Assembly: GCA_947454255.1 (NCBI GenBank)
Contig: CANGIU010000001.1
Span: 53,742 to 117,741, forward strand
Origin: Micrococcales bacterium
Lineage (GTDB): Bacteria; Actinomycetota; Actinomycetes; Actinomycetales; Microbacteriaceae
Direction of reading: 5' to 3'
DNA: 64,000 nucleotides
Shown here in pieces: positions 15,335-17,774 of the stretch. Each line of letters opens with the position of its first letter. The first letter of the stretch is position 1. The notes beneath the pieces are model-generated. The model ran no database searches. It was not told where the DNA came from and saw only the letters and a program-made list of their open reading frames with translations. Both the position numbers and the translations under genes were made by a program.

Positions 15335-15625
15335 TTGGCTACCGATTACGACGCCCCCCGCAAGAACGACGACGATACAGAGTCGCTGGAGGCAATCAAA
15401 GACCGTATTCCTGAGGGAACCACGGCAAGTTCAGATGTCGATGACGCCGATCATTCAGACTCATTCGCTATCCCTGAGGTTGCCAATGAGGAACTTGATG
15501 TTGTCGTGGTTCCGAAGCAGGAGGACGAGTTCACTTGCAGTGAGTGTTTCATTGTTAAGCACCATTCACAAAAAGCACGTAAAGACGGTCAATATGGGCC
15601 AGTCTGTGTTGATTGTTTCAACTAG
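15335..15625 (+). CDS. DUF4193 family protein
   Basis: MATDYDAPRKNDDDTESLEAIKDR ... CSECFIVKHHSQKARKDGQYGPVCVDC; TTG start with GAAAGGAAA SD. Confidence 0.85.
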   Translation: MATDYDAPRKNDDDTESLEAIKDRIPEGTTASSDVDDADHSDSFAIPEVANEELDVVVVPKQEDEFTCSECFIVKHHSQKARKDGQYGPVCVDCFN

Positions 15626-16076
15626 CACCAATAGTTAGGGCTTCGGCTAGCTGTTTAGGCTTTCTGGTTGAAAGAAGCCAATACGGGGTTGGATCATTAG
15701 CATCCTGTATTTCGATTTTTAGTAATCCTTTTATTCCTACTTGAAAACGTACAAATGCTTTGGGATTTAGTTTTGGTCCGCGTTCAGAAAATGCTTCCTT
15801 AGTTTCGATAACTGCTACTGCTCCTAAGAATGACTTAGGAACCTGAGCTCTACCGACAATAAGAGAAGTTTTTGACACTTTGATGGTTGTTGCCGTAATC
15901 ACACTTAGACCAACAATGAGTAGTTCAGATGCAATCATCGTAAATAGTGCCCAAAAACTATCAAAGGCAAGAACCACAAGGAAAAGAGCAATTGGGACAA
16001 ATAGCGATCCTAGGTAAAACGACGGTCCTGGAACTAGTCGCTCTCTGTATAGGGTTCCCGACTGAATTTTGTCCAT
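15618..16076 (-). CDS. DUF3093 family membrane protein
   Basis: Two N-terminal hydrophobic segments; position opposite dut as in many actinobacteria. Confidence 0.75.
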   Translation of the reverse strand: MDKIQSGTLYRERLVPGPSFYLGSLFVPIALFLVVLAFDSFWALFTMIASELLIVGLSVITATTIKVSKTSLIVGRAQVPKSFLGAVAVIETKEAFSERGPKLNPKAFVRFQVGIKGLLKIEIQDANDPTPYWLLSTRKPKQLAEALTIGAS

Positions 16077-16093
16077 GCGTTTAGAATACGCTC
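16077..16093. promoter_or_regulatory. candidate bidirectional leaderless promoter (DUF3093 / dut)
   Basis: GCGTTTAGAATACGCTC: +strand TAGAAT (16082-16087) N6 ATG(16094); -strand TATTCT (16088-16083) N6 ATG(16076). Confidence 0.6.
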
Positions 16094-16528
16094 ATGACAA
16101 CTTTTGAGGTGCTAATTACCTGTACTGAGGAATTCATGCCAAGCATGGGAAACCCAGGTGATGCCGGTTACGACCTTAGAAGCACTTTGGACTTAGTTCT
16201 AAAACCGGGACAAAGGTCTCTTATCCCAACTGGAGTGAGCATTGCTCTGCCAGAAGGATACGTTGGCTTAGTCCACCCCCGCAGTGGCTTAGCTGCAAAG
16301 CATGGGGTCACAGTTCTAAATGCACCAGGAACAGTTGATGCTGGTTATCGAGGTGAGATTGCTGTGACTCTTATAAATCATGGTGACACAGACTTCGCAA
16401 TTGCTAAAGGTGATCGCATTGCACAAATAGTTTTTCAGAAGTTTGAAGTTGCAAGCTTTGTTCAAGTGAGTCAATTGCCTGGATCGATGCGCGGGGCTGC
16501 TGGTTTTGGGTCTACGGGTGTCAAATAA
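16094..16528 (+). CDS. dut: dUTP diphosphatase
   Basis: GDAGYDLRS, PRSGLAAKHGVTVLNAPGTVDAGYRGEI, RGAAGFGSTG motifs. Confidence 0.97.
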   Translation: MTTFEVLITCTEEFMPSMGNPGDAGYDLRSTLDLVLKPGQRSLIPTGVSIALPEGYVGLVHPRSGLAAKHGVTVLNAPGTVDAGYRGEIAVTLINHGDTDFAIAKGDRIAQIVFQKFEVASFVQVSQLPGSMRGAAGFGSTGVK

Positions 16529-17100
16529 TGAATGAAAATCAAGCACCGGTAAACGGAAGCAAACTTGCCGGACCATTTGACGAATCTGAATTCGTTGATT
16601 CAACGGATCTAGCAGAATTTGGATCTATCGCTTTTATTCCAAACCCAAGAGTTAGTGTCCGAGCTGAAATTGAAGAAGGCACCGGAAGAATGGTGGCGCT
16701 TTCCTTTGATTTCAAAGACAGCTCACTACAGGTGCAAGCTTTTGCAAGCCCAAAGGGAGAGAACCTTTGGGAAGAGGTGTTGAACGATATCGTTGCAAGT
16801 CTTGAGTCGCAGGGCGTTTCGCTCGAACGTCATAGTGGCCCATTCGGAAGTGAAGTTCATGCTCAGATGCCCATGAGCGCGAGTGAGACTAAGACCGTGC
16901 GTATGTTTGGTTTCTCAGGGGATCGTTGGTTGCTACGGGGAGTAATTTCTGGGCCTGCTGTCAACGAGCTAGAAAGTCGTACCGAACTTGAGAATGTGTT
17001 TAGGGGGATAGTGGTAAGGCGTGGGGAAGTTCCTCTTCCACCTAGAGAGTTATTACCACTTTCTTTACCCGAAGGTGCAATTGTTCCTAAGGCGAACTAA
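16528..17100 (+). CDS. DUF3710 family protein
   Basis: GPFDESEFVD..., RMVALSFDFKDSSLQVQAFASPKGENLWEEV; neighbour of dut/DUF3159. Confidence 0.85.
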   Translation: MNENQAPVNGSKLAGPFDESEFVDSTDLAEFGSIAFIPNPRVSVRAEIEEGTGRMVALSFDFKDSSLQVQAFASPKGENLWEEVLNDIVASLESQGVSLERHSGPFGSEVHAQMPMSASETKTVRMFGFSGDRWLLRGVISGPAVNELESRTELENVFRGIVVRRGEVPLPPRELLPLSLPEGAIVPKAN

Positions 17101-17774
17101 TGACCCAAGAAGAGAAGGTTTCAAAATACGGATTACGTAAGACCGCCGACGGATATCAAGTTGATGCAAAGAGTTTGCTAGCAAGTGTTGGTGGTGTTCA
17201 AGGGTTAATCGAGACTACGTTACCTGGCTTTCTCTATGTGCTTAGTTATTCCATTTTTCGAAACCTTAGCGTTTCTATAACAGTTGTTGTCTGCGCAGTG
17301 CTAGCTTTGACCATTCGCCACCTAGTCAAGAAGAGGCCCTGGACTCAGCTGGTTGGATCTCTCGCAGGACTTGGGGTTGCTGTCTACTTGACTCTTCGTC
17401 CCGGTGGTCAAGCCGCAGATTATTACCTTAAGGATTTTTGGATAAACGGTGCATATGGATCTGCTCTGTTACTGAGCGTAATTGTTAGGGTTCCAATCGT
17501 GGGTCTTCTTGTTGGGCTGCTAACAAACCAAGGGTTGAGCTGGCGTAAAGTTCAGAGGAAAGTCCGATACTTTGATCTGGTAACCCTCCTGTGGGTTGGA
17601 CTTTTTGCCACACGGCTAGCTGTCGAGTTACCGCTCTATTTGGCCGGAAATGTAGTGATATTGGGCTTTGTAAAGATAGTTCTCGGCCTACCGTTCTATC
17701 TGACGATGATTTGGGTTTCTTGGCTTCTGCTAAGACGGGTCGTTAGAGCCGAACTAGATGGTAATTTGGAATAA
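17100..17774 (+). CDS. DUF3159 family membrane protein
   Basis: Multiple TM segments; [23 protein letters not shown] motif; TAATG coupling. Confidence 0.83.

Follow-up and report, generated by a model that had tools for sequence, protein, structure and literature searches.

A 17-bp spacer between divergent DUF3093 and dut genes as a probable bidirectional promoter of two leaderless mRNAs

Background

How can two divergent genes both be transcribed when only 17 bp lie between their start codons? The question is raised by a stretch of 64,000 nucleotides from a bacterium of the Microbacteriaceae (the window, whose coordinates are used below unless another locus is named), in which the gene of a DUF3093 membrane protein faces away from dut, encoding dUTPase, the enzyme that prevents uracil from entering DNA. 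What is known of bidirectional promoters comes mostly from enterobacteria in which start sites were mapped. In the present case the predicted start sites are given by the start codons themselves, so that sequence comparison is enough to show which positions either direction requires, that an element has been kept both ways, and how one class of spacing turns into another. The spacer is also a compact, 17-bp test bed for whether one polymerase-binding element can couple two genes.

We hold it to be quite likely that positions 16077-16093 constitute a minimal bidirectional promoter of the housekeeping-sigma type, in which one TANNNTA would serve two leaderless mRNAs, and that it derives from a layout with start sites 23 bp apart.

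Results

The spacer and its genes

The features on which the argument depends are the following.

15618..16076, minus strand: DUF3093 membrane protein gene (open reading frame; PF11292, E 3.8e-34), predicted leaderless from the ATG at 16076
16077..16093, no strand: 17-bp intergenic spacer, the entire predicted bidirectional promoter region; the strict pattern occurs once in the genome
16082..16088, no strand: TAGAATA (TANNNTA), shared heptamer and putative common -10, in 13/13 members of the 18-bp clade
16082..16087, plus strand: TAGAAT, putative -10 hexamer of dut, 6 nt before the ATG
16083..16088, minus strand: TATTCT, putative -10 hexamer of DUF3093, 6 nt before the ATG
16087..16092, plus strand: TACGCT, probable relic of the dut -10 of the 23-bp layout, found throughout the 23-bp class (56/56 spacers) and in 9/13 of the 18-bp clade
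16094..16528, plus strand: dut (dUTPase; open reading frame; PF00692, E 8.7e-37), predicted leaderless from the ATG at 16094
16528..17100, plus strand: DUF3710 gene (PF12502), whose frame overlaps the stop of dut; probably second in the dut mRNA
17100..17774, plus strand: DUF3159 gene (PF11361), whose frame overlaps the stop of DUF3710; probably third in the dut mRNA

The sequence reads CAT (16074-16076), GCGTTTAGAATACGCTC and ATG (16094), and a recheck confirmed the coordinates, the two hexamers, the 6-nt offsets and the 17-bp gap of the original prediction. Neither open reading frame has an in-frame upstream start ahead of a stop, and no Shine-Dalgarno-like run is present within 20 nt of either ATG. 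The best -35 matches at the two starts reach only 3/6 and 2/6, and a sigma-70 promoter scan, which demands a -35 and for that reason is blank here, predicted no site overlapping the spacer. The overlapping reading frames make cotranscription of dut, DUF3710 and DUF3159 probable. At its other end, DUF3093 overlaps a DUF4193 gene tail to tail by 8 bp (15618-15625).

The two hexamers have one TANNNTA heptamer in common and overlap with an offset of 1 bp, so that the -11A of each pairs with the -7T of the other, and TAGAATA carries these shared positions on both strands. Each predicted +1 falls on the A of an ATG, and the predicted start sites of DUF3093 and dut lie 18 bp apart on opposite strands; the +1 of either promoter therefore gives the other its T at -18, and this T is present for both. 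A T at -18 is said to help binding (PMC10268837).

The leaderless signature

Genome statistics were drawn from about 400 kb of the organism's own sequence (398 kb for the TANNNT peak) and from pattern searches. Upstream of candidate start codons TANNNT was found 50 times at 6 nt and 23 times at 7 nt, against a background of about 9 at other offsets; in the genome of a relative (G006) the counts were 51 and 25 against about 7. The consensus among the matches of the peak is TAGNCTT. This sharp peak 6 nt before start codons indicates, as far as such a signature can be trusted, that leaderless transcription is common in this genome. DUF3093 and dut both carry TANNNT at the modal offset of 6 nt, each of their hexamers, TATTCT and TAGAAT, lacking parts of the local consensus. 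A TANNNT 6-9 nt ahead of dut is also found in many other actinobacteria. Nothing useful was found in print about leaderless dUTPase genes or the start sites of Rv2697c/Rv2698.

Two further observations belong here. In three Microbacteriaceae loci that lack the shared element (L107, L117 and L133), TCGAAT stands 6 nt ahead of DUF3093 and is possibly a leaderless -10 of non-TANNNT type. The window itself holds a second divergent pair at 2258-2296, a leucyl-aminopeptidase-like gene (minus strand, probable ATG 2258) and a PAC2-like gene (plus strand, ATG 2296), both named from sequence reading only; TAGCAT and TAGAAT lie 6-7 nt before the starts as separate -10s, with predicted start sites 38 bp apart.

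Conservation of the core

A search for DUF3093 in 58 genomes, the present one included, gave a match in 49, and DUF3093 and dut were divergent in every locus where both were located. The comparison set, 67 genomes of the genus plus samples of the family, rendered 69 orthologous spacers, 64 of them from this Microbacteriaceae genus and 5 from near neighbours, with a few near-duplicates among the rows. Five genus loci were left unpaired because the DUF3093 alignment or the contig was cut, and four of these show the 23-bp layout by eye. A search of orthologous dut spacers, which had been proposed together with the original prediction, thus found the core TAGANTACG with zero mismatches in 69/69 by a loose scan, and the exact 18-bp layout in 13. 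In pairwise comparison these loci are on average 93% identical over the 11-bp core and 29-33% identical over the coding stretches on either side.

Some invariant positions of the heptamer are needed by one direction only, namely A7 (-12T of the minus-strand promoter) and T1 (-12T of the plus-strand promoter). That positions required by either direction have been conserved lends indirect support to the predicted output both ways. Two invariances are not fully accounted for by the two-hexamer model, that of T1 in the 23-bp class, where it holds too, and that of C8-G9, which are invariant everywhere. A further constraint is therefore possible; TAGATT possibly adds to dut transcription in the species of the 23-bp class.

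Such a constraint could be that of an operator, the conserved core being bound by a regulator common to both genes, with the promoters elsewhere or coincident with it by accident. In the 18-bp layout no -10 requires C8-G9, and the window's copy lies within a partial inverted repeat, GCGT (16077-16080) and ACGC (16088-16091), which the original prediction had pointed out. This repeat is not conserved even within the 18-bp clade, where the left arm reads GCGTT, GCATT, GGAAT, ACATT, ACGCT or ATGCT, and we reject it as a functional part. Elsewhere in the genomes the core is no commoner than a reversed-pattern control; no regulon is thus seen, and the motif was discarded as a regulon-wide operator. 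The invariant positions fit the requirements of -10 elements, with start codons at fixed offsets from them, and the decay of TACGCT is confined to species whose dut start has shifted. An operator is thus quite unlikely as the reason for the conservation.

It is very improbable that the core has been kept as coding sequence for an N-terminal extension of dut, with LDYAL codons following an in-frame ATG 27 nt upstream. Several relatives do have that ATG, but it is an artefact, created where the CAT of the DUF3093 start is followed by G, and the extension was rejected. At this place an in-frame start is missing from other relatives, the frame is closed by a TAG stop in the window, and third codon positions vary as little as the first and second.

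From composition one would expect the bare pattern CATN5TANNNTAN5ATG about 1.7 times per genome, and it was found once, at this spacer; being not improbable, it is not counted as evidence, and it would allow a one-sided leaderless promoter that merely looks symmetrical. What exceeds chance is that each ATG begins a real gene, that TANNNT peaks at the same offset in the genome, and that the core is invariant in the 69 spacers. Retention of the symmetry throughout the 18-bp clade, and in related form in the 56 other spacers, while the flanks are saturated, makes an accident hardly credible.

Two layouts and the step between them

The exact arrangement CATN5TAGAATAN5ATG, with predicted start sites 18 bp apart, was found in 13 species including that of the window, in all of which both offsets are 6 nt and both start codons ATG. 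The remaining 56 spacers read TAGA[T/C/A]TACGCT, the heptamer being TAGATTA, TAGACTA or TAGAATA, and show a second layout. In them DUF3093 keeps its minus-strand hexamer and starts, with few exceptions, 6-7 nt from it (TAATCT or TAGTCT; one TATTCT), and dut would use TACGCT, located 5 bp downstream of TAGATT and mostly 6-8 nt before an ATG or GTG. These two hexamers have only the self-complementary TA in common, which places the start sites 23 bp apart, or slightly more where a start codon has drifted. In some relatives the dut start is 8-10 nt from TACGCT, so that a few may have a very short leader. This layout with a second dut -10 is the majority state among relatives and was missed by the original prediction. 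Among divergent reading frames with both -10s at exactly 6 nt, only distances of 18 or 23 bp occurred within the range 8-40 in two 400-kb samples. A second candidate of the 23-bp class, CACAAAACAAACTTAGACTGAAACCATG, was noticed in G006 (L189, plus-strand start 9201), between reading frames of 231 and 74 codons.

The 23-bp layout also bears on whether the element works in one direction only, probably that of DUF3093, while dut, with a leader, is transcribed from a promoter within DUF3093, or vice versa. In most of the genus TAGATT is 11 nt from the dut start, off the leaderless offset, which would suit such an arrangement. In those same species, however, TACGCT is present in 56/56 spacers, mostly 6-8 nt ahead of the dut start, and in most of the other Microbacteriaceae sampled a TANNNT precedes dut by 6-8 nt and is not shared with DUF3093. 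Neither start, moreover, is preceded by a Shine-Dalgarno-like sequence. We regard one-directional use as unlikely. The notion that the 11-nt gap implies a leader of 4-5 nt in most relatives was likewise dropped once TACGCT was seen at 6 nt.

The history of the element can be traced in a tree of the dut and DUF3093 proteins rooted on other Microbacteriaceae, in which the 18-bp class forms one clade (SH-aLRT 98) within the 23-bp class. The surrounding supports are 81-85, and a single switch from 23 to 18 bp is therefore likely, not certain, as is its direction. TACGCT has decayed in 4/13 of the 18-bp clade (TACGAC, TACGTC) against 0/56 elsewhere (Fisher p 8e-4, without correction for relatedness), as expected if the task of serving dut had passed to TAGAAT. 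In the window TACGCT is 1 nt from the dut ATG and so cannot serve a start at that codon. In the ancestral element, TAGATTACGCT, dut would have been served by TACGCT, with start sites about 23 bp apart; a shortening of about 5 nt between the core and the dut start would then have brought the dut start codon to 6 nt from TAGAAT.

The same layout at other divergent pairs

The 18-bp layout is not unique to the dut/DUF3093 spacer. Across the 67 genomes of the genus there are 133 occurrences of the relaxed pattern CAYN5TANNNTAN5RTG and 60 of its reversed control, orthologous sites not being independent. One pair with this layout, of enolase-superfamily and enoyl-CoA hydratase-family genes, is found in 42/67 genus genomes, including that of the window. 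From sequence features and family membership the two are probably menC and menB, respectively. The sites are the following.

G000:C8:43888-43910 (L325:1501-1523): second 18-bp shared-heptamer site of the window's own genome, between menB-like and menC-like genes
Other divergent pair joined by the pattern: GNAT acetyltransferase and 5-formyltetrahydrofolate cyclo-ligase
Other divergent pair joined by the pattern: FMN oxidoreductase and NAD(P)H-hydrate dehydratase
Other divergent pair joined by the pattern: haemolysin-III family protein and undecaprenyl diphosphate synthase

The menB/menC case suggests a more general habit. We put forward tentatively, as a proposal that we could as readily see fail, that 'zero-leader' bidirectional promoters (a single TANNNTA, a 17-bp gap and no other regulatory DNA) are used again and again by the small-genome members of the Microbacteriaceae in this genus, holding pairs such as dut/DUF3093 and menB/menC in long-term transcriptional coupling, and that the three overlapping -10 hexamers of the ancestral element would have allowed the hop of about 5 nt with neither transcript lost.

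Discussion

The mechanism that best fits these observations is one in which RNA polymerase with the housekeeping sigma factor would engage the TANNNTA heptamer in either orientation and each transcript would begin with the A of its gene's ATG. The two start sites would lie 18 bp from each other on opposite strands and yield two leaderless mRNAs, that of DUF3093 leftward and that of dut rightward, the latter probably with DUF3710 and DUF3159. The comparative results favour three elements of the original prediction: a single TANNNTA acting as -10 both ways, through the core in 69/69 spacers and the exact layout in 13/13 clade members; the two leaderless mRNAs, through the genome-wide 6-nt peak and the lack of a Shine-Dalgarno sequence; and the predicted 18-bp distance, through the 6-nt offsets and the same peak.

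Its further proposal, that the two directions are mutually exclusive, may apply at most to single events of polymerase binding, as both orientations cannot be occupied simultaneously. It should not be extended to a regulatory switch. In five out of five E. coli bidirectional promoters tested, basal activity was too low for mutual depression (PMC12825309), and with so little competition in those examples an either/or switch is not to be assumed.

The spacer is well supported as a further variant of known bidirectional promoters and would not represent a new principle. With the bacterial bidirectional promoters with a symmetrical -10 described by Warman, Grainger, Wade and colleagues (PMC12825309, PMC10268837) it shares a common -10 between divergent genes, the reciprocal pairing of -7T and -11A, and a +1 A that gives -18T on the other strand. 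The predicted spacings, 18 bp in the window's clade and about 23 bp in most relatives, are both published classes, 18 bp being the commonest and 23 bp another common spacing (PMC12825309, PMC10268837), with 10 bp also common (PMC12825309). It differs from them in that both mRNAs are predicted to be leaderless, the start codons doubling as +1 and as the partner's -18T; in that the whole intergenic region is 17 bp and the -10 is of the actinobacterial TAGNCT/TANNNT type; and in that it has been kept across a genus, with a traceable switch of spacing class, its start sites being predicted only. With the leaderless promoters of actinobacteria, such as those of Mycobacterium tuberculosis (PMC3898074), it has in common TANNNT 6 nt before ATG or GTG, with neither a -35 nor a Shine-Dalgarno sequence. 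For M. tuberculosis that source reports divergent promoters lying close together and, in prpD/Rv1129c, two divergent genes that are both leaderless, in passages that describe no shared heptamer, whereas here one element would serve two genes.
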